Shown: piece by piece, positions 2,408-35,014 of the stretch | Layout of the letters: the number at the start of each line of letters is the position of its first letter | Position numbering within the stretch: the first letter of the stretch is position 1 | Assembly: GCA_902785785.1 (NCBI GenBank) | Contig: CADAAA010000012.1 | Span: 1 to 36,313, forward strand | Direction: 5' to 3' | DNA: 36,313 nucleotides | From: an uncultured Bacteroidia bacterium | GTDB lineage: Bacteria; Bacteroidota; Bacteroidia; Bacteroidales; UBA932 | Notes under the pieces: generated by a model | Databases searched by the model: none | Told to the model about the DNA's origin: nothing | The model's input: only the letters and a program-made list of their open reading frames with translations | Program-made: the position numbers and the translations under genes

Positions 2408-2421
2408 ATATGATTTGCAAG

Positions 2422-4230: not shown

Positions 4231-4266
4231 CGACGGGTTAATCGCACTATTCGAATATAAATCAAG

Positions 4267-4298
4267 AAGGGCGCCGACATGGCGCCTTTCTTATTTTA
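4267..4298 (+). terminator. Intrinsic terminator after first susCD pair
   Basis: GGCGCC (4270-4275), a five-base loop and GGCGCC (4281-4286) form a stem that extends with G.T and A-T pairs. A T-rich run follows (TTTCTTATTTT). It lies 37 bp after the susD stop and ahead of a separate promoter, so the second susCD pair probably has its own transcript. Confidence 0.75.
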
Positions 4299-4308
4299 AA
4301 AATCTTAC

Positions 4309-4316
4309 TATATTTG
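4309..4316 (+). promoter_or_regulatory. Bacteroidota-type -7 element (TATATTTG) for second susC
   Basis: TATATTTG matches the Bacteroidota -7 consensus TAnnTTTG. It lies just after the terminator of the first pair and about 100 bp before the second susC. No good TTTG -33 element is seen. The nearest T-run is at 4287-4289, so the upstream half is weak. A start near 4323 would leave a leader of about 90 nt containing the hairpin at 4344-4373. Confidence 0.65.
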
Positions 4317-4343
4317 TACAACTGACCACTTGTCTTAAATCAG

Positions 4344-4373
4344 CACCGATGGGGTTTAGAGGCTCCGTCGGTG
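4344..4373 (+). promoter_or_regulatory. 9-bp hairpin in the 5' leader of the second susC
   Basis: CACCGATGG (4344-4352) pairs with CCGTCGGTG (4365-4373) over nine positions, one of them a T.G wobble, around a 12-nt loop. It is not followed by a T-run, so it is not a terminator. It ends 41 bp before the susC ATG and could control stability or translation, or serve as a small-RNA target. The function is inference. Confidence 0.45.
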
Positions 4374-4414
4374 GATTGCTTTATCCCATAACCAATATTA
4401 TTAACCACTGATTT

Positions 4415-7400
4415 ATGACAAGCAAACTTTTCCAGAAACTGGCGGCTGTCGTCCTGACCTCCGTCATGTGCCTGATGGGAACGTTGGCCTATGGCCAGAA
4501 CCGTCCCATCAGCGGAACGGTAGTCGACGGCAGCGGGCTTCCGGTCATCGGAGCCACTGTCATGGTCGTCGGGAACAATTCCCTCGGAACGGTCACCAAC
4601 GCTGACGGAGCCTTCTCCCTCAACGTGCCTGCCGGATCGAGCATTACCGTTTCCTGCATCGGCTACGGTACGCAGACTGTCCCCGTGGGACAGCAGAGCG
4701 TATTCAACTTCATCCTCCAGGAGGACAACGAGTTCCTCGAGGAGACCGTCGTCATCGGTTACGGTGTGCAGCGCAAGAGCGACCTCACCGGATCCGTGGC
4801 GTCAGTACGTTCACAGGACCTCACCGACCGCTCGGTCTCCAATGCAGGCGCAGCCCTCCAGGGCAAGGCTGCCGGTGTCCAGGTCTACACCAATTCCGGT
4901 GCACCTGGTGAAGGAGCCCACATCCGCGTCCGCGGTATCTCCTCAAACAGCGGCTCCGGCCTCGGACCCCTCCTCATCGTCGACGGTCTTAAGGTTGACA
5001 ACATCCAGTATCTCGACCCTGAAATGATCGAGTCCATGGAGGTCCTCAAGGACGCCGCCTCTGCTGCCATCTATGGCGCGCAGGCAGGTAACGGCGTCGT
5101 GCTCATCACCACCAAGAGCGGTTCGAAGAGCAAGGACGGCAACATCTTCTACAACTACAAGCACACCATCACTTCACTCGCACACCGCGCCGAAGTGCTG
5201 AACGCCGAGGAGTTCATCGACTGGCAGCACCAGGCCAGCCAGCTCGGTACCCGCGAGGAGCTCATCGGAAGCGGTATGTGGGACGGTGTCACCGATACCA
5301 ACTGGGCTGACGTCCTCTACGGAAAGGGTGTCACCAGGAGCCACACCATCGGTGCCCAGGGCGGTAATGACCGCGGATCCTACTACTTCTCCCTCAACTA
5401 CATGGACGAGGACGGTATGGCCAAGAGCAACAAGGATATGTACAAGCGCCTCACCGCCCAGATCAACTCCGACTACAAGGTCAAGTCCTGGTTCCAGATC
5501 GGAACCAACACTTCCATCGAGCGTTACGAGAAGTCCGACCTCGGAAGCCCGAACGAGTACGGCGGAACCCTCCTCGGAGCCATCATCATCGACCCGCTCA
5601 CCCCGATTTACTTCAAGACCCCCGAGGATATGCCTACCAACATGCGCAGCGCATACGAGAGCGGTTATGTCGTGGACGGCGTCCATTATGACTACAACTT
5701 CTACACGAACGAAGACGGTTACTATTATTCCACCTCCAAGATCGTCGAGGGTGACGGTATGAACCCTCTCATCAACGTCGCACGCGCCTACGGCAAGAGC
5801 GAAGGATGGAATATCCGCGGTACCCTGTTCGCGAACATCACTCCCTTCAAGGGCTTCGTGTTCACCTCCCGCCTCGGCTACCGTATCGCACAGAGCTATT
5901 CCAGCGACTACAGCGAGCCTTACTATGTGAACCCCAAGCACTACTCGCAGAGCTACAGCATCTCCGCCAACTCCTCCCAGAGCTACTACTACCAATGGGA
6001 GAACTTCGCCAACTACAACAAGAGTTTCGGCAAGCATGACATCGGCGCGATGGCAGGTATGTCCTATACCTTCAACGACAGCCGCGGAGTCAATGCCGGA
6101 CTCTCCGGTACAGACCCCCTCAAGGGATACGCCGAGAACTTCCGCTACATCACCCAGGACAACGGATCCGGTACCAAGAGCATCGGCGGAGGAAGCCCCA
6201 GCAACTCCACCCAAATCTCCTACTTCGGACGTCTGACCTATAGCTACGACAGCCGTTACAGCCTCCAGACCAACTTCCGCGCAGATGCCTTCGACTCCTC
6301 GAAGCTTTCCGCAAAGAACCGTTGGGGATACTTCCCGTCAGTTTCCGCAGGATGGACGGTCTCCAACGAACCCTGGTTCAAGGAGAATATAAACCGCGAC
6401 GTCATCAACTTCCTGAAATTCCGCGGATCGTGGGGTGTCAACGGTAACATCTCCGTGCTCAGCGGATATCCTTACTCCACCTCCATCTCCTACAACAGCA
6501 AGACCTATCAGTATCACGTGAACAACAATGTGCTGGACTACGGTTCCCAGCCCGACGGCCTGGCAAATCCCGACCTGACCTGGGAGACTTCCGTACAGAC
6601 CGACCTCGGTCTCGACCTCCGTATGTTCAACAACCGGCTCACTTTCGGATTCGACTGGTTCAACAAGAATACCGAGGGACTGCTCGTCAGGATTTCGCCT
6701 GTGGCTGAGGTAGGTATCTCCTCCACCACCGTCAACGCCGGTTCCGTCAACAACAACGGTCTCGAATTCGAACTCGGATGGCAGGACAATATCGGAGATT
6801 TCGGCTACTCCATCAACGCCAACTTCTCCACTCTCAACAACAAGGTCACCTACCTTGAGCCGACAGTCGGCCACCAGAGCGGTTCGAGCTTTGCCAACTA
6901 CAAGCTCAAGACCTACTTCGAGGAAGGATATCCCGTCTGGTACCTCCGTGGCTTTGAGTATGCCGGCATCGGCCCCGACGGATTCGCACAGTTCTACGAT
7001 GCAGACGGCGAACTCACTTCGAACCCCAGCGACAATGACCTCAAGTACATCGGCAACACCCTCCCGACATTCCAGTACGGTGTAACCCTCCGTATGGACT
7101 GGAAGGGTCTCGATCTCACCGTGTTCGGAACAGGAGCGAGCGGCAACGACCTCGTACCTTGTATCTACCGTACCGAGCATACCAAGATCAACACTCTCCG
7201 CTACTATTACCTGGAGGCAGGAAAGAGTATCCCGACCATCGACAAGATCTACGACAAGATCAACTTCTGGAGTTCATCCGCCACCGTTTTCAAGGGTGAC
7301 TTCTTCAAGATCAAGCAGATCCAGTTCGGCTACACCCTGCCCAAGAAATGGCTCAGCAAGGTCGGCATGAGCGCCGTCCGCGCATTTGTCTCCTTGGATG

Positions 7401-7537
7401 ACTGGTTCATCTTCACCCAATACCCTGGATTCGATCCCGAGGCTGCCACCACCGGAAGCTCCACCGGCCGCGGTCTTGACAAGGGTACCTATCCCAATGC
7501 AAAGAAGCTTTTGCTCGGTGTCAACCTTTCCTTCTAA
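4415..7537 (+). CDS. SusC-like TonB-dependent outer-membrane transporter, full length
   Basis: This 1040-residue SusC/RagA family protein has a signal peptide of about 27 residues (ending LAYG). A carboxypeptidase-regulatory-like domain follows at about 30-105 (PISGTVVDG, GLPVIGATV, SCIGYGTQTV). The TonB-box-like segment TVVIGYG is at 111-117, and the plug domain ends near ITTKSG. The rest is the beta-barrel, with C-terminus GVNLSF. The ATG at 4415 gives the signal peptide directly. Such proteins import oligosaccharides with energy from TonB, covered by the SusD encoded 12 bp downstream. High similarity to the truncated SusC at 1-2407 points to tandem duplication of a susCD pair. Length and domain order are normal for the family. 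The substrate is unknown. Confidence 0.96.
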   Translation: MTSKLFQKLAAVVLTSVMCLMGTLAYGQNRPISGTVVDGSGLPVIGATVMVVGNNSLGTVTNADGAFSLNVPAGSSITVSCIGYGTQTVPVGQQSVFNFILQEDNEFLEETVVIGYGVQRKSDLTGSVASVRSQDLTDRSVSNAGAALQGKAAGVQVYTNSGAPGEGAHIRVRGISSNSGSGLGPLLIVDGLKVDNIQYLDPEMIESMEVLKDAASAAIYGAQAGNGVVLITTKSGSKSKDGNIFYNYKHTITSLAHRAEVLNAEEFIDWQHQASQLGTREELIGSGMWDGVTDTNWADVLYGKGVTRSHTIGAQGGNDRGSYYFSLNYMDEDGMAKSNKDMYKRLTAQINSDYKVKSWFQIGTNTSIERYEKSDLGSPNEYGGTLLGAIIIDPLTPIYFKTPEDMPTNMRSAYESGYVVDGVHYDYNFYTNEDGYYYSTSKIVEGDGMNPLINVARAYGKSEGWNIRGTLFANITPFKGFVFTSRLGYRIAQSYSSDYSEPYYVNPKHYSQSYSISANSSQSYYYQWENFANYNKSFGKHDIGAMAGMSYTFNDSRGVNAGLSGTDPLKGYAENFRYITQDNGSGTKSIGGGSPSNSTQISYFGRLTYSYDSRYSLQTNFRADAFDSSKLSAKNRWGYFPSVSAGWTVSNEPWFKENINRDVINFLKFRGSWGVNGNISVLSGYPYSTSISYNSKTYQYHVNNNVLDYGSQPDGLANPDLTWETSVQTDLGLDLRMFNNRLTFGFDWFNKNTEGLLVRISPVAEVGISSTTVNAGSVNNNGLEFELGWQDNIGDFGYSINANFSTLNNKVTYLEPTVGHQSGSSFANYKLKTYFEEGYPVWYLRGFEYAGIGPDGFAQFYDADGELTSNPSDNDLKYIGNTLPTFQYGVTLRMDWKGLDLTVFGTGASGNDLVPCIYRTEHTKINTLRYYYLEAGKSIPTIDKIYDKINFWSSSATVFKGDFFKIKQIQFGYTLPKKWLSKVGMSAVRAFVSLDDWFIFTQYPGFDPEAATTGSSTGRGLDKGTYPNAKKLLLGVNLSF

Positions 7538-7549
7538 TCTGACAGCATC

Positions 7550-9409
7550 ATGAAAAAAAGTATACTCTTAAGTCTGTCCCTTGCCCTGGCGGCATTTACC
7601 GTCACTTCCTGCAACGAGGACCTTCTGAATATCCCTCAGAAAGGCGTCATCGCCTATGAGGACTTCTACCAGACGGATAACGACGCCGAGTCTGCGCTAG
7701 TCACCGTTTACCATGAGTTTGTCGGCCTTTACGCCAAGCTCACCAGCAATACTCCCTCGTACAATATAGTGTTCAACGCTCCGGGCGACGAACTCTACTG
7801 GGGAGGCAGCAACAAGGACGACCATACGGCGGCACAGGAGATCAACGATTTCCGCGCGACCTACAACAGCAACAACGGTCACATCACCGCATGGTACAAG
7901 AAATGCTATTCTTTGATCTACAAGGCCAATCTCGTCATCGACAACTTCGGTGGAGACCTCGCCGACTCACAGGTCAAGAAGCGTTGCGTGGCTGAAGCCC
8001 GCGTCATCCGCGCATGGGCCCATCTGCAGCTCGCCATCATGTTCGGTACCCCGCCCCTCGTGGACCACGTGCTCCCCGGCGATGCCAAGCCGACCAACAG
8101 TGACCATCAGGAACTTCTGAACTGGATTGCCGACGAGTTGAGGGATGCAGCGAACGACCTGCCTGCACGCAACGGCAAGACCGACAAGGACGGCGCCGTC
8201 AAGATCACCAAGGGCGCCGCTCAGGCTTTCCTCGGCAAGGCATTGATCTTCAACGGAAAATATGCCGAAGCCAAGGAGCCCCTCAAGGCCGTCATCAACT
8301 CGGGCAACTACGCCCTCGTCGACGGCTCCAAGATGCGCGACCTCTTCCACATGGTCTGTGACGGATGCGAGGAGAAGATCTTCGAGCTCAACATGGTTGA
8401 CAATGACTACTATGGCAAGAACGGACGTTGGGACAACCAGGCGAACCAGTCGCTGTTCTTCCGCCAGATGAACTTCTTCCCTGATTTCACCCTTCAGGCT
8501 GTCGGCTGGGGCAACAACATGGCTCCTTCCAAGAAGTTTGTCGACGCCATCCTCGAGAACGAGGCCGGCTCCTATCGTCAGAAGGCTTGGATGTGCACCT
8601 ACGAGGAGCTCCTCACCGAGTTCCCTTACTCAAGGCTGGACACCAACGAAGACGGCACTCCTATGACCAAGGAGCAGAAGCTCATGGAGCCTAAGCGCGG
8701 TCTCGACCTGAACAAGCGTCCCGACCTCTATGCCAACTACGGATGGTATTTCCTCAAGTTCGTCCCCTACAAGTCCGACCTCAACACCAACAGTACCGGC
8801 CCGACTCAGGAGAACAAGACCATCATGCGCTACGCCGAGGTCCTTCTCCTCTATGCCGAGGCCTGTGCACAGACCGGAGACAACGACGGTCTGCAATACC
8901 TGAACATGGTTGCCCAGCGCGCCGGTGCTCCGACCTACTCCTCCCTCACCATGGAGAATGTCAAGAAGGAGAAATGGTTCGAGATGGCATGGGAAGGCTG
9001 CCGCTTCTGGGATCTCGTCCGCTGGGGCGATGCAGAGAAGGAACTGGCCTACAAGAGCCACAGCCTTACCCCATATCTGCGTGACGACTTCTTCATGAAC
9101 TGGGAGATGGCATCCAACGGTTCCGCGGACAAGACCAAGCCTCTCACTCCGGTTCCCGTCACGGTAGGTTCCTATACCTACTATACCTTCGAAGGAATCA
9201 CACGCGGCAAGATCGTGGGCAGCTCCAAAGAAGTTACCGGACGTCCTCACAAGGCTATCGTCATGTGGGATGATGACGGCTACGGCGCCAAGGGCGGCGG
9301 CTTCGTGAAAGGCAAGCACGAGCTCTACCCGTTCCCGTTCGACATCATCGAACTCAACCCTTGGAACGAGGAGACCGGTACCGGTATCAAGCAGAACCCC
9401 GGTTGGTAA
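7550..9409 (+). CDS. SusD/RagB-like surface glycan-binding lipoprotein
   Basis: The 619-residue SusD partner of the preceding SusC starts 12 bp after that gene's stop. The signal peptide MKKSILLSLSLALAAF leads to lipobox TVTSC with Cys21 as the lipid anchor. SusD-type elements include VAEARVIRAWAHLQLAIM, RYAEVLLLYAEACAQ and the WEGCRFWDLVRWGDAEKEL block near the C-terminus. The mature start (NEDLLNIPQKG) closely resembles that of the first SusD (ESKLEIPQKG), again suggesting duplication of the pair. It should bind glycan at the cell surface and close the SusC pore. A strong terminator follows at 9445-9480. The glycan specificity is not visible from sequence. Confidence 0.95.
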   Translation: MKKSILLSLSLALAAFTVTSCNEDLLNIPQKGVIAYEDFYQTDNDAESALVTVYHEFVGLYAKLTSNTPSYNIVFNAPGDELYWGGSNKDDHTAAQEINDFRATYNSNNGHITAWYKKCYSLIYKANLVIDNFGGDLADSQVKKRCVAEARVIRAWAHLQLAIMFGTPPLVDHVLPGDAKPTNSDHQELLNWIADELRDAANDLPARNGKTDKDGAVKITKGAAQAFLGKALIFNGKYAEAKEPLKAVINSGNYALVDGSKMRDLFHMVCDGCEEKIFELNMVDNDYYGKNGRWDNQANQSLFFRQMNFFPDFTLQAVGWGNNMAPSKKFVDAILENEAGSYRQKAWMCTYEELLTEFPYSRLDTNEDGTPMTKEQKLMEPKRGLDLNKRPDLYANYGWYFLKFVPYKSDLNTNSTGPTQENKTIMRYAEVLLLYAEACAQTGDNDGLQYLNMVAQRAGAPTYSSLTMENVKKEKWFEMAWEGCRFWDLVRWGDAEKELAYKSHSLTPYLRDDFFMNWEMASNGSADKTKPLTPVPVTVGSYTYYTFEGITRGKIVGSSKEVTGRPHKAIVMWDDDGYGAKGGGFVKGKHELYPFPFDIIELNPWNEETGTGIKQNPGW

Positions 9410-9444
9410 TATGATGATTGTCATCCCCAGTGGATGACATCTGC

Positions 9445-9480
9445 AAAAGGGGGCCGGCAATTATTTGCCGGCTCCCTTTT
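9445..9480 (+). terminator. Intrinsic terminator after second susCD pair
   Basis: GCCGGCAA (9453-9460) and TTGCCGGC (9465-9472) pair around the loop TTAT. The stem continues through a G.T wobble and three G-C pairs, then A-rich bases pair with the TTTT tract. It ends the second susCD transcript about 40 bp after the stop. Confidence 0.85.
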
Positions 9481-9557
9481 TTATGCCACTTCGCGTGAAT
9501 GGTGGTATTTTGAAAAGAAATGATAATTTCCTTATATTTTTTTCTGCCTCATTTCCC

Positions 9558-9565
9558 TAAATTTG
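9558..9565 (+). promoter_or_regulatory. -7 element (TAAATTTG) in front of a possible small RNA
   Basis: TAAATTTG fits the Bacteroidota TAnnTTTG consensus and lies in AT-rich DNA between two terminators. A start about 7 nt downstream would begin at the hairpin 9573-9587. No clear -33 TTTG is found at the right distance, so support is the -7 box and context only. Confidence 0.5.
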
Positions 9566-9571
9566 CAATGA

Positions 9572-9706
9572 ACCGTGCAAAGCACGGATGGCACGGAACT
9601 AAGATTTAACAGAAAATACTCTTCATGGAGCCCGTTTCGGGCACATTTATTAGTTAATTGGTTTGTGTTAAGGAAAGAGGGCTGCCGGGAGGCATCCCTC
9701 TTTTTA
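9572..9706 (+). ncRNA. Candidate small RNA (~130 nt) between a promoter-like box and a terminator
   Basis: The segment has no convincing open frame. It starts just after TAAATTTG and ends in an intrinsic terminator. CCGTGC (9573-9578) can pair with GCACGG at 9582-9587 around an AAA loop, or with a second GCACGG at 9591-9596, which gives two exclusive hairpins. A third hairpin, GCCCG-TTT-CGGGC, lies at 9630-9642. The terminator stem is 9674-9686/9691-9703. I do not recognise an RNA family. It could be a trans-acting regulator of the nearby susCD genes, or merely a leader for the hydrolase gene, although the terminator and a second promoter at 9741 argue against that. All of this is inference from layout. 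Confidence 0.45.
9674..9705 (+). terminator. Intrinsic terminator of the possible small RNA
   Basis: AAAGAGGG and CCCTCTTT pair outside a C/T mismatch, and TGCC/GGCA pair inside it, around the loop GGGA. T residues follow. It lies 70 bp before the hydrolase gene and is separated from it by another TATATTTG box. Confidence 0.8.
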
Positions 9707-9740
9707 TGAAAAACTTCACCGATATACTATGGGAAAACGC

Positions 9741-9748
9741 TATATTTG
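9741..9748 (+). promoter_or_regulatory. -7 element (TATATTTG) for the alpha/beta-hydrolase gene
   Basis: This is an exact TATATTTG box 29 bp before the ATG at 9778, placing the likely start near 9755 and giving a short leader. No strong -33 element is seen. Confidence 0.7.
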
Positions 9749-9777
9749 TGTTTAACTGACTGATAATCCTCAACAAT

Positions 9778-10680
9778 ATGAAGAAAGCATTCCTTATCAT
9801 GGCGGCATGCGCATTGGCGCTGCTCCAGTCCTGCGGCAGCACGCCCGCAGAGACATTCTCCGAGAAAAAAATCGTCGAAGACGGCGGCAGCGGCCCCTAC
9901 AAGGCTATCATGGTCACCGAGCCAAGCCTCGACGCCCATACCATCTTCCGTCCGGAAGACCTCAGCCCCTTCGGCAAGAAGAATCCCCTCCCCGTCCTCG
10001 TCTGGGGCAACGGCGCCTGCACCAATTCCCCTTGGGAGCATCAGAACTTCCTGAGCGAGATCGCATCGCACGGATTCATCGTCGTAGCTACCGGCTACAT
10101 GCCCGAGGAAGGCAAGCGCAACTACGGACCGCAGTCCACTTCCGCGCAGCAGATCGAGAGCATCGACTGGGCCATCGCCCGCAACGCCGACAAGGAAAGC
10201 CCTTATTACAACAAGCTTGATGTCAATGCGATCGCAGCAGCCGGAATGTCCTGCGGCGGCCTCCAGACCCTCGACAACTCCGCCGATCCGCGCATCAAGA
10301 CCCTCATGATCTGCAACAGCGGCTTGTTCTCCAACCCGGCCGGCGCCGTCCCCGGCATGCCCATGCCCGACAAGGAGAAACTCCAGGACATCAAGGTGCC
10401 TATCATGTACCTGCTCGGCGGCGAGACTGACATCGCGTATGCCAATGGCATGGACGACTTCTCCCGCATCAACCACGTGCCTGCCTTCGCGGCCAACTAT
10501 CCTGTCGGCCACGGTGGCACCTACGGCAAGCCGCACGGCGGAGAGTTCTCCGTCGTGGCGCTCGCGTGGCTGCAGTGGCAGCTCCAGGGCGACAAGGAAG
10601 CCGCCAAGATGTTCCAGGGCAATCCCTGCGGCGTAGCCCAGCGCGAAGGCTGGACCGCCGAGAAGAAGAATATCGACTGA
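9778..10680 (+). CDS. Secreted alpha/beta-hydrolase lipoprotein (esterase-like)
   Basis: This 300-residue protein has a lipoprotein signal (MKKAFLIMAACALALLQSC, lipobox LQSC, Cys19) and an alpha/beta-hydrolase core. The nucleophile elbow is GMSCG with Ser158. Asp218 (GGETD) and His245 (GHGGT) are likely triad partners, and WGNG at 76-79 lies in the expected oxyanion-loop region. Dienelactone-hydrolase-like and secreted esterases of the fold look like this. The substrate, perhaps ester groups on the glycan imported by the neighbouring SusCD pairs, is inference. It has its own promoter-like box and terminator, so it is probably transcribed alone. The anchor puts it in the outer membrane or periplasm. 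The last 12 bases form one arm of a perfect inverted repeat. Confidence is good for fold and low for substrate. Confidence 0.85.
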   Translation: MKKAFLIMAACALALLQSCGSTPAETFSEKKIVEDGGSGPYKAIMVTEPSLDAHTIFRPEDLSPFGKKNPLPVLVWGNGACTNSPWEHQNFLSEIASHGFIVVATGYMPEEGKRNYGPQSTSAQQIESIDWAIARNADKESPYYNKLDVNAIAAAGMSCGGLQTLDNSADPRIKTLMICNSGLFSNPAGAVPGMPMPDKEKLQDIKVPIMYLLGGETDIAYANGMDDFSRINHVPAFAANYPVGHGGTYGKPHGGEFSVVALAWLQWQLQGDKEAAKMFQGNPCGVAQREGWTAEKKNID

Positions 10681-10701
10681 TCAACAGGATCAGTCGATAT
10701 T
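10669..10701 (+). repeat. Perfect 12-bp inverted repeat spanning the stop codon
   Basis: AATATCGACTGA (10669-10680, including the TGA stop) is mirrored by TCAGTCGATATT (10690-10701) with a 9-nt loop. A second, stronger hairpin follows 5 bp later, so the hydrolase mRNA would end in two consecutive hairpins. Confidence 0.7.
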
Positions 10702-10705
10702 GCAG

Positions 10706-10738
10706 ATACCCTGCGGGTGTGTCCCCGCAGGGTATTTT
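10706..10738 (+). terminator. Intrinsic terminator of the hydrolase gene
   Basis: ATACCCTGCGGG (10706-10717) pairs perfectly with CCCGCAGGGTAT (10724-10735) around a 6-nt loop and is followed by TTT. The first repeat array begins about 20 bp further on. Confidence 0.85.
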
Positions 10739-10755
10739 GTTTCGGCATCCCTTCC

Positions 10756-11092
10756 CCGTGCTCGACGGTACCTTCCCGGAGCACGGAACGGGGCCGAAAA
10801 CTGCCGCGGTGCTCGAGGCGTCTCTCTCTGAGCACGAAAGGGGCCGAAACGGCGCATTCGTGCTCAGAAATGGCCTCCGCAAGCACGGCAGGGGCCCAAA
10901 AGCACCTGCGGTGCTCGAGGCGTCTCTCCCGGAGCACGGAAGGGGATGAAAGAGCGCAGCCGTGCTCAGAAATGGCCTTCGCGAGCACGGCAGGAGCCCA
11001 AAAGCACCCGCGGTGCTCAGAACGTCTCTCCCGGAGCACGGAAGGGACCGGGAATGAACAGCCGTGCTCGAAAAAGCCTCCCTAAAGCACGG
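10756..11092 (+). repeat. Array 1: seven 51-bp units with GTGCTC/GAGCAC palindromes
   Basis: GTGCTC begins at 10758, 10809, 10860, 10911, 10962, 11013 and 11064, exactly 51 bp apart. In every unit the second arm (GAGCAC, or AAGCAC in units 3 and 7) begins exactly 21 bp after the first. Each unit is therefore 6-bp arm, 15-nt loop, 6-bp arm and 24-bp purine-rich spacer. Several arms extend to CCGTGCTC/GAGCACGG, and unit 5 reaches 9 bp. Loop and spacer sequences alternate between two types, giving a 102-bp higher-order period. The array lies between the terminator of the hydrolase and the start of the transposase gene. It resembles REP/BIME elements in association and symmetry. I do not know this family. 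Confidence 0.9.
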
Positions 11093-11200
11093 AATGTTGA
11101 AAAATGCGGTGGTAATTGTTACTGAATGAGAGAAAAATATCTTTTTGTCGATAACAAATCTTTTTTTGCCGCATATTAGCCCTGAAAACTATCGAAAACT

Positions 11201-12142
11201 ATGAAAGATTTTACGCAACACTCCAAGATTCCGTTCCGGGAGCAGGAAATCCGATGCGAGATGCAGTTTCGGGAATTGGGAAACTGCTGGCACATCTATA
11301 CGCCGGAACAGTTTCCCATTGTATTTGGAACGAATGATGACTTCAAGGCAGGGATGAACCTTGTAGCAATATGTGCTATTGCTTTCCCTGACGTGAAGAT
11401 ACTGACTTTTGAAATCATGTCCAACCACATGCATCTCTGTGTGTCAGGATTGGAAGAAAGGGTAAAGGCGTTCGCTGCAATGCTGACAAAATTCCTTGAA
11501 CGATATCTGAAAGGGACTTCGCGTCCCATTGATCTCTCAGAATGGAACCGTATCCCCCGACAGATCTCAGACCTGAATGACATACGGAACGTTATCGCAT
11601 ATATCAATAGAAACGGGTATCTGGTCAATCCTGATTCAACGCCCTTTTCTTATCCGTGGGGTGCTAACAGGTTCTATTTCAATCCTGAATTAAGAAGCTT
11701 CCATGGAGTTTCCAATGAATGCCTTTCCCAGAAATATCTGAGAAAGACCTTCCACTCCCGCCTGCTGGACGGTTGCTGTGGATTGGCGACGATAGATGGA
11801 TATGTAAGTCCCGTTTCATTCTGTGACATTTCCGTAGCTGAGCGGTTATTCCGCGATGCACGGCACTATTTCTACAAAGTTTCACACGATATTGAAAGCC
11901 AACAGACCATTGCAGCGGAGCTTGGAGAAAGGATATTCTACACAGATTCTGAGTTGTATGCTTTTGTCATATCTAAATGCAAAACGGAATACAACGTTGA
12001 TTCGCCGCCCCTTCTGTCCCGCGATGCTAAAGTCCTTTTGGCCAAAGTCCTTCATTACGACTATAACGCTGATAACCAGCAGATAGCCCGTATCTTACGG
12101 CTTGATCTGCAGGTATTGGATTCACTCTTCCCTCCCAGATAG
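11201..12142 (+). CDS. REP-associated tyrosine transposase-like protein (HUH/Y1 family)
   Basis: This 313-residue protein has the Y1 transposase signature: the metal-binding HUH motif NHMH (His76, His78) in EIMSNHMHLCVSG, followed by a helix with candidate catalytic Tyr134 in AYINRNGYLVNP, the spacing and context found in RAYTs. A C-terminal helical segment (DNQQIARILRLDLQVLDSLF, 291-310) looks like a helix-turn-helix. RAYTs are single-copy, domesticated relatives of IS200/IS605 transposases that cut and join single-stranded REP hairpins. Here palindrome arrays end 109 bp before the ATG and begin about 12 bp after the stop, exactly what a RAYT would recognise. The gene is visibly lower in GC than its neighbours, with A/T-ending codons, which suggests separate ancestry. 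No TAnnTTTG promoter is clear upstream. The enzyme class is well supported. Action on these repeats is inference. Confidence 0.85.
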   Translation: MKDFTQHSKIPFREQEIRCEMQFRELGNCWHIYTPEQFPIVFGTNDDFKAGMNLVAICAIAFPDVKILTFEIMSNHMHLCVSGLEERVKAFAAMLTKFLERYLKGTSRPIDLSEWNRIPRQISDLNDIRNVIAYINRNGYLVNPDSTPFSYPWGANRFYFNPELRSFHGVSNECLSQKYLRKTFHSRLLDGCCGLATIDGYVSPVSFCDISVAERLFRDARHYFYKVSHDIESQQTIAAELGERIFYTDSELYAFVISKCKTEYNVDSPPLLSRDAKVLLAKVLHYDYNADNQQIARILRLDLQVLDSLFPPR

Positions 12143-12154
12143 TCCTTTGTCCGC

Positions 12155-12541
12155 GGTGCTCGGAAACGCGCCGTCTGAGCACATAGGTGGCAGTGAGAGG
12201 GGCGCCGTGCTCAAAAGCGCCCTCGCGGAGCACGGGGAGGCGTGGGAAGGAGCTGCGGTGCTCGGAAACGTCTCCCCTGAGCACCGAGGCGGCAAAGAAA
12301 GGGGCGCCGTGCTCAGAAGCGCCCTCGCGGAGCACGGGGAGGCGTGGGAAGGGGCTACGGTGCTCGGAAACGCCTCACCTGAGCACAGAGGTGGCAGTGA
12401 GAGGGGTGCCGTGCTCAAAAGCGCCCTCGCGGAGCACGGGGAGGCGTGAAAAGGGGCCGCGGTGCCCGGAATCGCGTCCCCTGAGCACCGAGGCGGCAAA
12501 GAGAGGGCTTCCGTGCTCGAAACTGCCATAGCTGAGCACGG
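12155..12541 (+). repeat. Array 2: eight 51-bp units with GTGCTC/GAGCAC palindromes
   Basis: First arms begin at 12156, 12207, 12258, 12309, 12360, 12411, 12462 (GTGCCC) and 12513, again exactly 51 bp apart. Second arms (GAGCAC) always begin 21 bp later. Odd and even units form two classes in loop and spacer, giving a 102-bp period. Even units are flanked CC...GG (CCGTGCTC/GAGCACGG). Units 3 and 7 instead have CG...CG (CGGTGCTC or CGGTGCCC with GAGCACCG), a compensatory base-pair swap that keeps the stem. The orientation is the same as array 1. The array begins 12 bp after the transposase stop and ends just before the terminator of the starch operon. Confidence 0.9.
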
Positions 12542-12550
12542 GAGAGACGG

Positions 12551-12580
12551 AAAAGGGCCTCCGTATAAGCGGAGGCCCTT
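12551..12580 (-). terminator. Intrinsic terminator of the starch operon
   Basis: The 11-bp perfect stem AAGGGCCTCCG (12553-12563) / CGGAGGCCCTT (12570-12580) is followed on the minus strand by TTTT. It lies 28 bp after the GH97 stop and closes the long minus-strand operon, shielding it from the repeat array. Confidence 0.85.
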
Positions 12581-12607
12581 AGGAGGGAAGCAGAGAGTCC
12601 GGGCGGC

Positions 12608-14848
12608 CTAGAGGGCGCGGAGGGAAACGGCAAAGCCGCCGCCGCGGGCCATCTCCACGGAGATGGAATCCGTGGCGGTGACGTTTCTGCGCGTGATTAC
12701 GTACGCCTGCGGATTCTTCTCGTAGTCGGCGTCAGGGGCGTCGGCGTAGATTACGGCCTCGTAGGTCTTGCCAGGCGTAAGGAAATCGAGGGCGAACTCC
12801 GCCTTGCGGGCGTTCTCGTCGGTCACGCCGCCAACGAACCAGGTGTCGCAGCCGGCACTGAAGGCCTTGGCCGAGCCGGACAGCGACGACTGCTTCGGGC
12901 GGCGAGCAATGACCAGGATGTCGCCCGGCTCGGCGGCCAGGTAGCGCGTTTCGTCCCAGTCGACGGCCACGTCCTTAATGAACTGGAATGCGTCCATGAA
13001 CGGGGCATAATGCTCAGGCGTATCGGCAGCCATCTGCAGCGGTGAGTACATCGTGACATACAGGCCGAGCTGATTGGCAATGGTCGCATTGACATGCGAA
13101 TCGTTGCCGCACCACTCCTTGAGGTTCTGCTCGAAGATACCGGGCGTGAAATCCATGGGACCGCCGTTCAGCCTGGTGAACGGCAGGATAGTCAAGTGCT
13201 CCGGCACGGTGCCGCCGAAAGCCTGGTACTCCGTACCGCGCGCGGACTCGTTGCCAATGAGGTTGGGATAAGTGCGGCAGAGGCCCGTAGGGCGCACCGC
13301 CTCATGGGCATTGACCATGATGTGATGCTTGGCGGCCTCGGTCACTGCATAAAGGTAATGGTTGACCATCCACTGCCCGTAATGGCGCTCGCCAAGAGGC
13401 TGGATATCACCGACATAGCCAGACTTGACGGCATCGTAGCCGTACTTGTTCATGAGCGAGTAGGCAGCCTCCATGTGACGCTCGTAATTGCGCACGCTGG
13501 ATGAAGTCTCGTGATGCATCACGAGCTTGATGCCCTTGGAGTGCGCATACGCATTCAAGGCGTCGATGTCGAAGTCCGGATACGGTGTCAGGAAGTCGAA
13601 GACGTAGTCCTTGTTGCAGTTTGCCCATTCTTCCCAGCCGATGTTCCAACCCTCGACCAGCAGGGCGTCGAAACCATTCGCCGCAGCGAAATCGATATAC
13701 TTCCTCACATTGGCATTGTTCGCGGAATGGCGGCCGTTCGGCGTAGCCGCGGCATAATCGAAGCTGTCAAGCTTGACCGACGCGGCGTTCGTGTAATCCC
13801 AACTGCCGGCGCCGGCGATCATCTCCCACCATACGCCCATGTATTTAACTGGGTGGATCCAGCTGACATCGTCAAGAGCGCAGGGTTCGTTCAGGTTAAG
13901 GATCATGCGGCTCTCGAGCTGTTTCACAGCAGATTCAGCGACCTGGATGGTACGCCAGGGCGTCACGCAGGGAGTCTCCAGACGCCCTTTCCAGCCTTCG
14001 GCGTCGGGCGTCAGGAATGAGCGCAGGTTCTTGCCCTCGGCAAGCAGGTGCATGCAGGGATAATCGACCAGCGCGGCCTCGTGGATGTTGACGTAAAGCC
14101 CCTCCGGGGTCTTCATCTGCAGCGAGGTCTGCACTCCGCCCGTGCTGTAGAGCGTCGTGCTGGAATTGTACTGGTTGGTCCTTGAAGGGAAGACCGAGGG
14201 GATCTCGGAGAGCTTCGAGGTGGCATACTCGTACTCCTGCGAGTCGAAATCGCCCGGAATCCACCATGCGGTGTTGTCCTGCGCGCAGTTGAACTCCGTG
14301 AGTTCCTCCTTGATGACGAAGTGCACCAGCGGCTGGCCTGAAGGGAACTCATAGCGGAATCCAAGACCATCGTCGAACACCCTGAAACGGATGTTCATGA
14401 GCTTGCCGTCATCCTTGTGCCGGAGTTCGAGCAACATCTCATTGTAGTGGTTGCGGATGCTCTTCTCCTCTCCCCAGACAGGCTCCCAGGTCTCGTCGAA
14501 CGTGTCGAAGGAATGATCTACGATCTCAAAACCGCTGTTGAACATGTATGGAGGCAGCTCGTCCGGCTTGAGGATCTCGCTGCCCTTGTATTCCAGACCC
14601 TGGTACTTGACGGTGCCGCGGAGCTCGAAACCGAGTGCGCTAGGCAACATCACGGGCGTATCCTTATAGTTCAGCTCATAGACGGGGGTTCCGTTCCTGT
14701 CCAGATAGACATTTGCAAACAGCATCCCGTCAGGCGAAGAGAGGACAAAAGTCTCGGTGCCGGGGGTATGCGCGACCTGCGCCGGCTGCGTCTTGCAGCC
14801 GGCCAGGAGCGCGCAGGTCAAGGATATTAGTACGATGAACCTTTTCAT
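12608..14848 (-). CDS. susB: GH97 alpha-glucosidase, SusB-like (inverting subgroup)
   Basis: This 746-residue lipoprotein (lipobox LAGC, Cys18) has the three-part GH97 layout: N-terminal beta-sandwich, TIM barrel from about residue 335 (MGVWWEMIAG) and C-terminal beta domain. The catalytic glutamates keep the exact spacing I recall for B. thetaiotaomicron SusB: E447 (HHETS) and E516 (NAHEA) as base pair, E534 (GNESARG) as calcium ligand, and E540 as general acid. The intervals of 69, 18 and 6 residues match 439/508/526/532. Glutamate at the base positions marks the inverting alpha-glucosidase group rather than the retaining alpha-galactosidases. It releases glucose from maltooligosaccharides in the periplasm. 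It is the last gene of the starch operon, 11 bp after the neopullulanase stop, and is followed by the operon terminator. Confidence 0.95.
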   Translation of the reverse strand: MKRFIVLISLTCALLAGCKTQPAQVAHTPGTETFVLSSPDGMLFANVYLDRNGTPVYELNYKDTPVMLPSALGFELRGTVKYQGLEYKGSEILKPDELPPYMFNSGFEIVDHSFDTFDETWEPVWGEEKSIRNHYNEMLLELRHKDDGKLMNIRFRVFDDGLGFRYEFPSGQPLVHFVIKEELTEFNCAQDNTAWWIPGDFDSQEYEYATSKLSEIPSVFPSRTNQYNSSTTLYSTGGVQTSLQMKTPEGLYVNIHEAALVDYPCMHLLAEGKNLRSFLTPDAEGWKGRLETPCVTPWRTIQVAESAVKQLESRMILNLNEPCALDDVSWIHPVKYMGVWWEMIAGAGSWDYTNAASVKLDSFDYAAATPNGRHSANNANVRKYIDFAAANGFDALLVEGWNIGWEEWANCNKDYVFDFLTPYPDFDIDALNAYAHSKGIKLVMHHETSSSVRNYERHMEAAYSLMNKYGYDAVKSGYVGDIQPLGERHYGQWMVNHYLYAVTEAAKHHIMVNAHEAVRPTGLCRTYPNLIGNESARGTEYQAFGGTVPEHLTILPFTRLNGGPMDFTPGIFEQNLKEWCGNDSHVNATIANQLGLYVTMYSPLQMAADTPEHYAPFMDAFQFIKDVAVDWDETRYLAAEPGDILVIARRPKQSSLSGSAKAFSAGCDTWFVGGVTDENARKAEFALDFLTPGKTYEAVIYADAPDADYEKNPQAYVITRRNVTATDSISVEMARGGGFAVSLRAL

Positions 14849-14859
14849 ATCTGGTTTGG

Positions 14860-16770
14860 TTAGAATTCGACAATCAATACCTGGCGGGGACCCACCAGCA
14901 CTTCGGAACTGAAATCAACGCGCTCCCCCGTCATCACGTCCTTGCCGGCGGAAAGCCCGCGGGGCCCGGTGAACTCGGAATACGATGCCCACGGCACGGC
15001 TACGTGGAAAGGACAGTTGTTGGCAAATACGAACACCGCCTTGTCATCCGTATAACGGAAATAGGAGTATGTGTTGTCCCTGCGCAGGAAATGCAGCGTC
15101 GCGCCGTCGTGGACGGCAACGGCGCCCTTGCGCCAGTTGAAGAGCCTGCGCGCGTAGTCGAAGACTTCGGCGCGCACGCCCTCGCGCAGCGGCGACCCGT
15201 CGAAATCGACGTCGCACTCCGCGCGCCCCTCAGACGTGAACAGGTCGAAACTGTCGCCCTTCCACCCTCCGGGGAAATCCACGCGCAGACCACCGTCATG
15301 ATGGGCATAGCTGCTCGGGGTGAACATCTGCTCGTCACCCGAGAATATCTGCGGGATACCGCGCAGCGTGGCGGTCAGCGCCAGCACCATCTTCATGCGG
15401 TCCGGATCGCGCCTCAGCACGTCGCCGATACGGTCCGTGTCGTGGTTCGAGCAGAAGACGAGAATGTTCTTCGGATCGGCATAGAAAGCATCGTTGGCGA
15501 TGGCGTCGAACACCTTGGTGATACCTTCGTCCCAATTCTCATAATCAGTGTTAAGTCCTTGGCAGAAAGCGCTATGCAGGGGGAAATCCATGATAGAAGG
15601 GAGGTTGGAGTTGAATCCGTCGCGGTTCATCGCCCCGTCCTGCCAATAGGCCAGCTGGGCGATGTTGTTGGTCCAGACCTCGCCCACAATGTTGATGTTC
15701 GGATACTCCTTGCGCACCGCAGCGCACCACTGGGACATAGGCACCTTCTCGTTGTACGGGTAAGTGTCCACGCGCAGGCCGTCAAGGTCGGCATATTCGA
15801 TCCACCAAACAGCCCACTGCTTGAAATACTGCAGCAGATAGGGGTTGTCAAGGTTCATGTCCGGCATCGAGGTATCGAACCAGCCGCTCTGCATATTGAT
15901 TTGGTCGATAGTCGCAGAATTGGGATCGTTCTGCATCGCGAAATTGCAGTTGGAATGCGTGTACTCCGGCCACTGATGGACCCAGTCCGCGAAAGGAAGA
16001 TCCTTCATCCACCAATGCGCATCACCGCAGTGGTTGGTCACGATGTCCATGATCATTTTGATGCCGCGCTCATGGCATTTGCGCACGAGCTCGCAGTACA
16101 TCTCATTGTCTCCGAATCGGGGATCGATGCGGTAATAGTCACTGCAGGCATATCCGTGGTAGGACTCGCGCGGCTCATTGTCCTCGAGCAGAGGAGTGTT
16201 CCAGATGGCCGTTGCGCCCAGGTCGGCGATATAGTCCAGATGGTCCATAATGCCCTTTATGTCGCCTCCGTGACGGCCAGTAAGCTTCTCGCGGTCAACC
16301 TTGTCGTCAGTATCAGGCGTATTGTCATTGGTCGGATCGCCGTTGGCGAAGCGGTCTGGCATGATCAGGTAGATCAAGTCGGCGGTGGAGAAACTCTTGC
16401 GTTCGGCAGAGCCTTCGCGGCGCTCCCCTATCTGATAAGGCACCTTGAATGCGTACTGTCCGTCCTTCACGAACGCGACCCAGATCTGGCCCGGAGCCCC
16501 GACCTTGACGTCGACGAACAGGTAGTTCGGACTCTCGGCCTTGTGGACACCCGCCACTTCGGCGTCGCCGAAGATACGGACGTCATAGTCCGAAATGGCC
16601 GGCCCCTGGACGAGAAGCTGGAGGTCGGTCTTCATTCCTGCCCACCAGCACGGGGGTTCCACGCGGGTTACCTGCTCCGGAGTCGCTTCTGCAACTTCCG
16701 GGACCTTCTTTTCCTGTCCGCACGCGCACAGCGCGAGAATGCTGACGGCTGTCATGAGATATCTTTTCAT
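14860..16770 (-). CDS. susA: GH13 neopullulanase/cyclomaltodextrinase-like lipoprotein (SusA-like)
   Basis: This 636-residue GH13 enzyme has an N-terminal immunoglobulin-like domain (about 30-120) of the kind found in cyclomaltodextrinases and neopullulanases. The (beta/alpha)8 barrel opens with DLIYLIMPDRFANGDPTND. Conserved regions are DIVTNH (242-247), GLRVD with nucleophile Asp335, IVGE with acid/base Glu364, and SNHD with Asp444. A signal peptide with lipobox LCAC (Cys17) shows export. B. thetaiotaomicron SusA is similar in size and layout and acts in the periplasm on imported oligosaccharides. Lipidation here could place this enzyme on a membrane instead. It lies between the other GH13 gene (7-bp gap) and the GH97 gene (11-bp gap), so co-transcription is likely. 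The GH13 assignment is firm. The exact SusA equivalence is probable. Confidence 0.93.
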   Translation of the reverse strand: MKRYLMTAVSILALCACGQEKKVPEVAEATPEQVTRVEPPCWWAGMKTDLQLLVQGPAISDYDVRIFGDAEVAGVHKAESPNYLFVDVKVGAPGQIWVAFVKDGQYAFKVPYQIGERREGSAERKSFSTADLIYLIMPDRFANGDPTNDNTPDTDDKVDREKLTGRHGGDIKGIMDHLDYIADLGATAIWNTPLLEDNEPRESYHGYACSDYYRIDPRFGDNEMYCELVRKCHERGIKMIMDIVTNHCGDAHWWMKDLPFADWVHQWPEYTHSNCNFAMQNDPNSATIDQINMQSGWFDTSMPDMNLDNPYLLQYFKQWAVWWIEYADLDGLRVDTYPYNEKVPMSQWCAAVRKEYPNINIVGEVWTNNIAQLAYWQDGAMNRDGFNSNLPSIMDFPLHSAFCQGLNTDYENWDEGITKVFDAIANDAFYADPKNILVFCSNHDTDRIGDVLRRDPDRMKMVLALTATLRGIPQIFSGDEQMFTPSSYAHHDGGLRVDFPGGWKGDSFDLFTSEGRAECDVDFDGSPLREGVRAEVFDYARRLFNWRKGAVAVHDGATLHFLRRDNTYSYFRYTDDKAVFVFANNCPFHVAVPWASYSEFTGPRGLSAGKDVMTGERVDFSSEVLVGPRQVLIVEF

Positions 16771-16777
16771 ATTGGTT

Positions 16778-17992
16778 TTATTTGCAATCGATGGAATATG
16801 ACCAGGGCGCGACGAGGTCCACCTTCACGGTGACTTTGTCCCTACCAGCCTTGCGCCTGTACGAAATGGACTCGGGCGAGACGCTAAGGAGCTTGAACGA
16901 ACCCGCAGGGTCCAGGGCGGGATGGTCGTGACGCAGTTTCGTAAGATATTGATAGAACTCAGTATACTCATTGTCCTTCCACTCCGGTACCGGATCCTTC
17001 TCGAAGAACTCGAAGCGGTGGTCCCAGCCTATCTCCTGGCCGGTGTAGATCAGCGGCTGGGACTCAGGAAGGGTCCAGCAGAGCACTGTCATGGCTTTCC
17101 AGGCGTCGCCCATGCGCTCGAACTCGGTCCCGGACCAGGAATTCTCGTCATGGTTGGACGTGAAGGACAGGCGCTTGGCATTTGCCGGATAGGTCTCTGC
17201 GTTCCAAGCTATATAGCGCGCCAGCGAATCGCCGTCGGCGGCTCCCTGCGCGATATCGTTAAGCAGATGGTGCAGTTTCCAGGCATAGGTAGCGTCGAAT
17301 CCGACCTTGTGCAGCCAGGTCTCCTCGCCCTCCGCGAGGAAATACAGGTAGCGCGGCGACTCGTTGCGCAGCGCGCCAATAGCCATGCTCCAGAACGTAT
17401 CCGGCACCTGGTAGGCCACGTCGCAGCGGAAGCCGTCAATGCCGCGCTTCACCCAGAATCGCATGGCGTTGCGCATTGAAGCACCGACCTCGATATTGCC
17501 ATAGTTCAGTTTGGCGATATCGGTCCAGTCATACTCGACGATGGTATGCCCGAGCGAATCGCGGTAATACCAGTCCGGGGACTCTTCCGTCACCCAGGGA
17601 TGGTCGGGCGATGTGTGGTTGGCCACCCAGTCCAGGATGACCTTGAATCCCTGCTCGTGAGCCGCCGCAAGGAAAGCGTCGAAGTCTTCCAGCGTACCGA
17701 ACTCGGGGTTCACGTCGCAGTAGTCGCGGATGGCATAATACGAGCCGAGCGAGCCTTTGCGCTCAAGCTCGCCGATAGGATATATCGGCATCAGCCAGAT
17801 GATATCGACGCCGAGGGCCTTGAGGCGCGGCAGCTGCTTCTGCGCTGCCGCGAATGTGCCCTCGGGCGTAAACTGGCGGGTATTCAATTCGTAGACGACG
17901 GAGCAGTCCGGCCATTCCCTCTCCGGGACCGGTTTCCTGGCGCATCCGAACGCCAGCGCTGCAATAAGCAGGAAATATAGTATGCGTTTCAT
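16778..17992 (-). CDS. GH13 alpha-amylase family lipoprotein, short form
   Basis: This 404-residue GH13 protein has a lipoprotein signal (MKRILYFLLIAALAFGC, Cys17). The barrel begins almost at once (VVYELNTRQFTPEG), without an N-terminal accessory domain. The catalytic residues are Asp191 (GFRCD), Glu221 (FLAEGEE) and Asp282 (TSNHDEN), and region I is DWVANH (121-126). At about 400 residues it is near the minimum for the family, with a reduced C-terminal beta domain. It probably hydrolyses short alpha-1,4-glucans in the periplasm or at a membrane. The exact product specificity cannot be read. It follows the GH53 gene by 8 bp and precedes the neopullulanase gene by 7 bp, so it is part of the same operon. 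Confidence 0.92.
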   Translation of the reverse strand: MKRILYFLLIAALAFGCARKPVPEREWPDCSVVYELNTRQFTPEGTFAAAQKQLPRLKALGVDIIWLMPIYPIGELERKGSLGSYYAIRDYCDVNPEFGTLEDFDAFLAAAHEQGFKVILDWVANHTSPDHPWVTEESPDWYYRDSLGHTIVEYDWTDIAKLNYGNIEVGASMRNAMRFWVKRGIDGFRCDVAYQVPDTFWSMAIGALRNESPRYLYFLAEGEETWLHKVGFDATYAWKLHHLLNDIAQGAADGDSLARYIAWNAETYPANAKRLSFTSNHDENSWSGTEFERMGDAWKAMTVLCWTLPESQPLIYTGQEIGWDHRFEFFEKDPVPEWKDNEYTEFYQYLTKLRHDHPALDPAGSFKLLSVSPESISYRRKAGRDKVTVKVDLVAPWSYSIDCK

Positions 17993-18000
17993 GCAATCTG

Positions 18001-19239: not shown

Positions 19240-19254
19240 ATCAGGCATCAAATC

Positions 19255-34714: not shown

Positions 34715-34827
34715 GCAAGATTGTCGATTAAAAGGTTTCAATGACTCCGCCTTTCCGGACGAACTCCCCGATTTGCCGGATGAAATGCCCCCACGCCGCT
34801 CCCAACGGTTCAGCCCCCTCCCCTTCC

Positions 34828-35007
34828 GCGCACGTTTTCGCCAATTTCGTGCGCTTTTGCCCTTAAATCGGCCCTTTCGCGCACGTTTTCGCTATTTTCG
34901 TGCGCCAACACGCCCTTTTTCCCGTCTTCGCGCATGTTTTCGCCTTTTTTGTGCGCGAGCAAGCCTGTTTTCCAGCCGAGGCGCACGAATTCGCTGATTT
35001 TGTGCGT
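34828..35007 (-). repeat. Array 3: four 51-bp units with GCGCAC/GTGCGC palindromes
   Basis: First arms begin at 34828, 34879, 34930 (GCGCAT) and 34981, exactly 51 bp apart. Second arms (GTGCGC, last GTGCGT) begin at 34849, 34900, 34951 and 35002, always 21 bp later. Loops keep a TTTTCGC-NNN-TTT pattern, while the 24-bp spacers differ in sequence but never in length. The geometry is that of arrays 1 and 2, although the arms differ. Pyrimidine-rich spacers on the plus strand suggest the array is in the reverse orientation, hence the minus strand. It fills the intergenic region between divergent malQ and the lipoprotein gene at 35039. Confidence 0.88.
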
Positions 35008-35014
35008 ATATTCG
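35007..35014 (+). promoter_or_regulatory. Weak -7-like element overlapping the last repeat arm
   Basis: TATATTCG differs by one base from TATATTTG and lies 25 bp before the lipoprotein ATG. Its first base is the last base of the final GTGCGT arm. It has no clear -33 partner. If real, the repeat array would form the immediate upstream region of this promoter. Confidence 0.35.

Follow-up and report, generated by a model that had tools for sequence, protein, structure and literature searches.

The gene for a putative single-strand nuclease and the two palindrome arrays around it, found in a 36,313-nucleotide stretch of DNA from an uncultured gut bacterium of the Bacteroidales (the window), are best read as a single member of a REP/RAYT-like system that is specific to one lineage and present there in multiple copies, most of which are flanked by a hairpin type of their own: we give this reading a probability of roughly 70%. 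Comparison of family loci shows that the genes are flanked by arrays that mostly exhibit the same arms on both sides and that these arms are tied to the protein lineage, whilst cognate copies in trans centre on doublets of palindromes, whole units have been gained or lost between close relatives and, at one slot, gene and hairpins have been exchanged together. On this basis we regard both the association of arrays with genes and the specificity series as well supported, and infer cleavage and mobilisation from them.

Architecture of the window locus

The left array (10756..11090) comprises seven palindromes of the form GTGCTC-N15-GAGCAC with a period of 51 bp, starting at 10758, 10809, 10860, 10911, 10962, 11013 and 11064, with the last unit ending at 11090; the right array (12154..12541) contains eight palindromes of the same type and period, starting at 12156, 12207, 12258, 12309, 12360, 12411, 12462 and 12513 and ending at 12539. 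An earlier note on this DNA had claimed seven and eight units with shared GTGCTC/GAGCAC arms, each unit consisting of a 27-bp palindrome and a 24-bp spacer, and all of this proved exact: both arrays keep a strict 51-bp register, and both 6-bp arms are perfect in 12/15 units, with one arm mismatch in the other 3/15. The same note gave both arrays one orientation; this is weakly defined for palindromes, and neighbouring units here match better in direct than in inverted alignment. Tandem Repeats Finder scored a period of 102 above one of 51 on these arrays. Helical phasing was considered as a possible reason for the pitch; 51 bp do not divide evenly into turns of 10.5 bp.

The arrays are not a chance occurrence, since the pattern GTGCTC-N14-16-GAGCAC is found 33 times in the 2.36-Mb genome to which the window belongs (G000) and its reversed control not once, and since a scan for palindrome-recurrence seeds returned 34 seeds in positions 1-20000 of the window, all with period 51, compared to none when 40 homologue loci (252,092 bp) were replaced by Markov versions. 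Folding of ten sequences as single-stranded DNA included six units of the window locus, which gave -7.1 to -10.2 kcal/mol with z-scores of -1.9 to -4.3.

As left border of the module we take a terminator-like hairpin followed by TTTTG (10706..10735, plus strand), identified by eye and assigned to the upstream hydrolase gene (9778-10680); it is not among the terminators listed by a terminator scan. The gap between left array and start codon (11091..11200, plus strand) contains TATCTTTTT. The right border is a perfect GGGCCTCCG/CGGAGGCCC hairpin (12555..12578) between the right array and a convergent GH97 glycosidase gene (12608-14848, minus strand). Elsewhere in the window, an orphan array of about four units, some imperfect, is present at 34826..35013 (GCGCAC-N15-GTGCGC, period 51): it has no adjacent transposase in the window, and its arm type is that found around a paralogue in the same genome (G000:C5:136108).

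The encoded protein is related to RAYT transposases

The open reading frame between the arrays (11201..12142, plus strand) encodes 313 amino acids followed by a stop, with the HUH motif NHMH at residues 75-78 (11423..11434, plus strand) and the presumed catalytic Tyr134 encoded at 11600..11602 (plus strand). From these motifs the earlier note had assigned a HUH/Y1 protein. The Pfam Y1_Tnp model matches the window protein by itself only at E 0.1, single-sequence searches of NCBIfam and of PDB sequences were too weak as well, and the Y1 assignment thus rests on the family alignment and the fold. Residues H76, H78, Y134 and N138 are invariant in 38/38 aligned family members including the window protein (42 genes were read, and four with stops or truncation were excluded). 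With the limit set at E 0.1, Y1_Tnp matches 15/38 members, the strongest with 3.5e-4, and the NCBIfam model REP_Tyr_transpos (NF047646) matches 12/38, the strongest with 7.6e-11; the window protein is not one of these 12.

An AlphaFold2 model of the window protein (mean pLDDT 92.7) gave as its top Foldseek match in the PDB the RAYT bound to a REP hairpin (4er8; probability 1.00, E 9e-3), in agreement with the RAYT type proposed earlier; no PDB match fell below E 0.001, and the next matches include several IS200/ISDra2-type transposases among unrelated folds. The C-terminal half is helical, with a conserved NKQIxRILxLD stretch and a possible HTH at its end; it has no significant Foldseek match, with the weak ones including DeoR, sigma-4 and Hin DNA-binding domains. 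The WQ-type and YIxxNP signatures listed in Table 1 of PMC6006769 are mostly missing: W[QETAYH] occurs between HUH and Tyr in just 3/38 members, and residue Y+5 of the YIxxNP signature is Pro in 3/38 and Gly in 21/38. In the window protein itself, Y134 lies 56 residues after H78 and WQ is absent. PHROGs matched 0/38 members at E 0.01, and a PADLOC match of 1/38 members to Cas5b (E 0.005) was taken as chance. We consider the protein to be probably a RAYT-type HUH/Y1 single-strand nuclease-ligase with an added helical C-terminal half.

Palindrome arrays adjoin genes of the family

After removal of nine duplicate loci, and with a threshold looser than that of the seed scan, an array with a pitch of about 51 bp adjoins the family gene at 88 of 103 sampled loci, with arrays on both sides at 53 loci, on one side at 35 and on neither at 15. 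The same threshold finds an array on 146/216 flanks compared to 6/589 windows more than 1.2 kb away (Fisher p 5e-97). With duplicates included, the stricter seeds place arrays on both sides at 47 of 103 loci, on one side at 29 and on neither at 27, with 11/264 control windows positive. Homologues without nearby palindromes, which the earlier note had held to speak against its reading, thus do occur, but as a minority (15/103, or 27/103 with stricter seeds).

The pitch is nearly constant: amongst 139 seed-bearing flanks (stricter seeds, duplicates included) it is 51 bp in 99, 52 in 25, 50 in 9 and 53 in 1, whilst the others show 74 bp (two) or 42, 78 or 81 bp (three). Two units are present on 74 of 153 array-bearing sides and the largest array has 14. 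In centre-aligned units the loop tends to AAAA-nGGCC-TTTT, and a search for a conserved cleavage tetranucleotide in the same alignment found none. GT[AG]G lies within 7 nt of an arm on 10/153 sides, where 10.4 are expected by chance; this canonical REP mark is thus lacking from the hairpins.

The nearest unit lies at a median distance of 127 bp upstream and 26 bp downstream of the matched part of the gene. The motif TATCTTT[GT], picked after ranking 7-mers, is found in 22/110 of the 150-bp stretches upstream of matched genes compared to 3/787 controls. TAnnTTTG is the Bacteroidetes -7 promoter element.

These upstream distances, beside promoter-like motifs, would suit an account in which the palindromes are double-stranded operator or iteron-like sites to which the protein binds with its C-terminal half, be it to regulate its own gene, to silence or to organise DNA, and have been spread by recombination and not by the nuclease. 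The pitch of 50-53 bp on 134/139 sides, with 74 bp on two, is near whole helical turns and would suit it too, as would the helical C-terminal half with its conserved end and weak DeoR, sigma-4 and Hin matches. Those matches are non-significant, however, and the invariance of HUH and Tyr suggests selection on the catalytic site; moreover, doublets dispersed in different surroundings and arrays within coding genes (both described below) point to a mobile unit. An operator role is in our view unlikely, and we retain the REP/RAYT-like reading.

Arm sequences follow the protein lineage

In order to compare arms across a gene, the 58 two-sided loci were scored: upstream and downstream arms of one gene agree with a mean score of 6.38, compared to 1.65 (sd 0.24) when permuted, and this exceeds the maximum of 5000 permutations (2.72). 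A score of 6 is reached across one gene in 37/58 loci and in 5% of cross pairs; amongst the 21/58 loci where it is not reached are some, the window included, in which the script took the spacer-side reading of the same palindrome. Arm similarity also rises with protein identity. Below 60% identity the mean is at background (1.4-1.9; 4315 pairs), rising to 2.1 at 60-70% (97 pairs), 5.9 at 70-80% (39 pairs), 8.0 at 80-90% (6 pairs, two of which score 4 and 5) and 10.0 above 90% (6 pairs), where it should be borne in mind that pairs share members and are hence non-independent. As judged from these scores, arms differ between genes and are mostly common only above about 70% protein identity.

A slot next to hisG provides an individual case. 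Both flanks of this slot are 83-90% identical in nucleotide sequence between G000 and a second genome (G004), whereas the proteins are only 58% identical and the arms are GCGCAC in G000 and CGAACA in G004. In RUG470, a near-identical genome that was reached separately, the downstream flank is 89% identical to that of G000 and the upstream flank is different, with the protein being 91% identical to that of G004 and the arms again CGAACA. Since flanks are shared while protein and arms differ, gene and hairpins have changed together. Co-variation of palindromes with the protein, which the earlier note had proposed to look for, is thus found both in the relation of arms to identity and in this exchange. 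GCGCAC arrays are kept in RUG470 despite the other gene type in its hisG slot.

Fixed-pitch tandem arrays can also arise by slippage, and unit number varies between relatives, so that the arrays might be satellites unlinked to the gene and close to it by chance. We regard this as extremely improbable given the association of arrays with genes, the arms common to both sides of a gene and their specificity for protein lineage. Sampling of chosen stretches across contigs argues in the same direction: 400 kb of G000 contain five arrays, four of them with arms assigned to this genome's own families, whilst two genomes without a family match in the single-sequence search gave 0 arrays in 400 kb (G013) and one array at 48 bp but none at 50-53 bp in 219 kb (G030). 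Array-bearing stretches number 5/20 in G000 compared to 0/20 in G013 (p 0.047).

Copies in trans and turnover of units

The earlier note had held that a lack of copies elsewhere in the genome or in relatives would speak against its reading. Copies do exist: a search of G000 with a three-arm GTGCTC pattern gave 25 hits, and these include five places outside the window locus. Among relatives, RUG470 has the GTGCTC unit at 17 sites (reversed control: 1 hit) including the counterparts of the window locus and of the C1:434471 doublet; the three-arm pattern is absent from the 60 other sampled genomes of the genus. The GCGCAC pattern is present at five other places in G000, one of them in the window at 34828 and common to RUG470; it also adjoins a family gene in G001 and forms two doublets in G019. 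These G019 doublets were considered as flanking a transposase, which was rejected, as the gene between them is menA-like. Hairpins of the TGAACA family lie at 13 further places in G000, and 3/60 other genomes (G010, G067, G072) also contain them.

Doublets of 75-76 bp, each made of two palindromes, recur at dispersed places, and the second palindrome of some (G067, L033) looks like an inverted copy. For a pair of copies in G067, the direct alignment is confined to the 80-bp doublet (89%) and an inverse one extends over 123 bp (76%), whilst two pairs in G000 match beyond the doublet, over 252 and 136 bp. The three compared pairs thus have the doublet as their common core; the reading of it as a cleanly bordered mobile unit is weakened, as matches reach beyond the doublet in two of the three.

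Comparison of the window locus with RUG470 (protein 97% identical; left and right flanks 97% and 91% at the DNA level) reveals a difference in whole units: the left array has 7 units in the window and 3 in RUG470, amounting to 204 bp. The right array has 8 units in both, and judged by eye has diverged more than the gene. An empty site for the C3:150868 array was sought in RUG470, but only some of the flanking sequence could be matched there, at 64%.

Arrays within protein-coding genes

Because 51 bp correspond to 17 codons, arrays can form in-frame protein repeats, and two such cases were identified in G000; they concern unrelated genes, which we name from a reading of their sequences, and two different arm families, both arrays being orphan. 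On contig C10, a GTGCTC array is read in frame as 17-residue repeats; they form part of the linker in a barrel-type protein with a membrane anchor, and relatives in G003, G008 and G024 are without them; in RUG470, repeats of this type lie at a contig end, with the contig stopping inside the array. On contig C9, five GCGCAC units are in frame in an Fe-S oxidoreductase-type protein, where residues 162-300, made up of five 17-residue units and a Ser/Ala/Pro-rich stretch, have no counterpart in G003. The matching parts on either side are separated by 18 bp in G003; in eight homologues, which belong to seven other genomes, the distance is 12-90 bp. Rickettsia palindromic elements are likewise found as in-frame insertions within genes that encode proteins. 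Excerpts of the literature describe RPE-1 within a gene (PMC3733652) and in-frame REPs for subclass 2.4 (PMC6006769); the present cases differ from both in that whole arrays of 17-codon units are involved, in two unrelated genes and from two arm families.

Distribution of the family

The earlier note had described the locus as a self-contained module, which does not stand, as the locus is not isolated: a single-sequence search of G000 gave nine family matches, eight of them listed by place, and a profile search gave ten, with six of the eight listed places exhibiting arrays, of six different arm types. Among the G000 matches listed, the one nearest to the window protein shares 60% identity with it. 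Across 61 genomes, the single-sequence search matched 33, namely G000 itself, 32/36 members of the genus and 0/24 genomes from other families; a profile search at E 1e-10 of 198 genomes across the order matched 5, these being G000, one genus member and three others, the last weakly. In a species-level collection, 80 of 141 loci were kept, labelled Bacteroidales, Bacteroidia, Bacteroidaceae or Candidatus genera such as Cryptobacteroides, and many of these come from ruminant or horse gut. The family looks like a lineage-specific, multi-copy expansion in uncultured Bacteroidales.

A Y1 fold and hairpins at both ends would also be expected of an ordinary autonomous transposon of the IS200/IS605 type that has several end hairpins and moves as one unit; in keeping with this, some genes (L033, L062, L174) lie between doublets that are nearly identical. 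Recent copies are not seen, however, since the closest listed paralogue in G000 is only 60% identical and no two array-bearing G000 paralogues are among pairs of at least 70% identity; no near-identical copy of the window gene is among the places found in this genome. Furthermore, RUG470 has the gene in the same position with the same neighbours, and the hisG slot is common to G000 and G004. We thus consider movement as an ordinary transposon quite improbable and turn to the relationship of the REP/RAYT-like system with those already described.

Relationship to known systems

According to the excerpts of PMC6006769 and PMC8266576 used here, TnpA-REP recognises and cuts single-stranded REP hairpins, and PMC6006769 states that RAYTs presumably co-evolve with the hairpins on which they act. 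With the TnpA-REP/RAYT REPtrons of E. coli, Stenotrophomonas and Marinomonas, as described in these excerpts, the present system has in common the HUH/Y1 core and fold (4er8), a hairpin-flanked gene, several divergent paralogues, gene-specific hairpins and further genomic copies. Cognate hairpins are dispersed in the same genome for the three families counted (5, 5 and 13 other places), and the gene stays in place without near-identical copies, the flanks being conserved in RUG470, yet with cassette exchange in the hisG slot. It differs from the REPtrons so described in that GT[AG]G occurs beside the hairpin no more often than by chance and WQ and YIxxNP are mostly absent; further differences are the arrays, which have up to 14 units on one side at a spacing of about 51 bp, and a protein of 280-321 residues (alignment A1) with a helical C-terminal half. 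Since GT[AG]G is at chance and the protein signatures mostly fail, we take the system to be related to RAYTs but do not count it as a canonical REPtron.

Comparison with TnpA-Y1 subclass 2.6 and class 3 was made by their description in the excerpts of PMC6006769. Subclass 2.6 is mostly found in Bacteroidetes and resembles the present family in its flanking 'atypical secondary structures' without GT[AG]G that have copies elsewhere in the genome. By that description the two differ: members of subclass 2.6 have 179 residues, WQ, YIH[QN]NP and a median of 82 residues from HuH to Y, compared to about 300 residues, 56 residues between H78 and Y134 in the window protein and, usually, Gly at Y+5. As in REPINs (BIMEs), defined in those excerpts, copies in trans frequently consist of a pair of palindromes; unlike in classical REPINs, most neighbouring units here are direct (267/323), and of 151 classified gene-flanking sides 99 are direct, just 31 inverted and 21 ambiguous. 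TIRtrons (TIRYT), in the excerpts of PMC3733652, likewise combine RAYT-like genes with a lack of canonical REPs, but have long terminal inverted repeats where the present family has arrays of short hairpins. Fixed-pitch arrays are not mentioned in the excerpts of PMC6006769, and the words 'tandem' and 'array' are absent from its main text; searches of an open-licence library returned no account of Y1 genes in Bacteroidales that are surrounded by palindrome arrays with a fixed pitch. We regard the system as a new RAYT/REP variant that would work like a REPtron.

Proposed mechanism and implications

By analogy with RAYTs, the protein would act on its flanking hairpins, as the earlier note had suggested. 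It would bind its own hairpin type as single-stranded DNA, and could cut and rejoin near the hairpin edges through Tyr134, by which doublets might be copied or moved. With TnpA-REP as the guide, arms and loop may serve as recognition elements in place of GT[AG]G. The long direct arrays would grow and shrink by whole units, be it through recombination, slippage or the enzyme. Doublets without an adjacent transposase (G019), loci without arrays and the GCGCAC arrays of RUG470, present despite the other gene in its hisG slot, weigh against a REP/RAYT-like reading, as do the loci with an array on one side only, the 21/58 two-sided loci below arm score 6, the two pairs at 80-90% identity with arm scores of 4 and 5, the matches of dispersed copies beyond the doublet, the mostly direct units, the chance-level GT[AG]G, the missing protein signatures, the lack of a PDB match below E 0.001 and that of a significant fold match for the C-terminal half.

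Beyond the individual locus, we see even odds that the family represents a large natural series of nuclease-hairpin pairs that readily switches specificity, with dozens of arm sequences, each tied to a protein lineage and for the most part not retained once identity falls under about 70%, with exchange of gene and hairpins as a cassette at a shared slot, and with arrays that also offer raw material for new protein linkers. One lineage would then supply dozens of enzyme-hairpin pairs at many divergences, making the specificity code directly testable, and the coding arrays, with relatives that are without the insert, would offer a concrete route from a DNA hairpin repeat to a protein repeat.

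Palindrome arrays away from transposase genes

A second, orphan palindrome array is found in the window at 34826-35013, where it exhibits GCGCAC/GTGCGC arms at the 51-bp pitch of the main locus; these arms are those of the arrays flanking the paralogue at G000:C5:136108 (G000 being the genome of the window itself), and the array is also present in the near-identical relative RUG470. Its position is upstream of a lipoprotein-like ORF. The stretch 59-34636 of the window encodes what we take to be SusC/SusD-like pairs, GH13-like genes and an MFS-like transporter, together with a GH97 gene named through database search, and this gene set looks like a starch-use locus.

Doublets of adjacent palindromes were observed at several further sites. 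Two TGAACA doublets of G000 (L307, C11:82678; L310, C4:157383) have 252 bp in common at 87% and are therefore part of a larger repeated sequence. In genome G019, a menA-like gene lies between two near-identical GCGCAC doublets (L096/L099; C11:63974 and 65215), with no transposase there, and a doublet with long TTAACCTTCGGC arms and a 52-bp pitch (L250, near 6840 on G000:C1) was not matched to a paralogue.

Arrays also occur in-frame within coding genes: the GTGCTC array at G000:C10:39608-40195 (L081/L106) corresponds to 17-aa repeats within an ORF of 510 aa, which has a membrane anchor and a C-terminus resembling a barrel, and five GCGCAC units at G000:C9:24991-25221 (L315/L319) lie within a long Fe-S oxidoreductase-type ORF, with no counterpart of these units in its homologues from eight other genomes.

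Variation around the homologues

One homologue (L068, G016:C4) is flanked on both sides by arrays with a pitch of 74 bp rather than 51 bp, and close to another lies a separate ATCCCT/AGGGAT array with a 42-bp pitch (L037, 3661-3787). For a subset of homologues (e.g. L154; L130, L139, L144), upstream motifs were observed: GTGGCGT and GCGTTGG each occur in 17 of 110 upstream stretches. By eye, GCGGGCC-AATTCCCGC-like inverted repeats were seen immediately ahead of some start codons.

At the hisG slot, a single chromosomal place holding a family gene in several genomes (L031, L119, L120), related genomes differ in both transposase and hairpin type, the two being swapped together.
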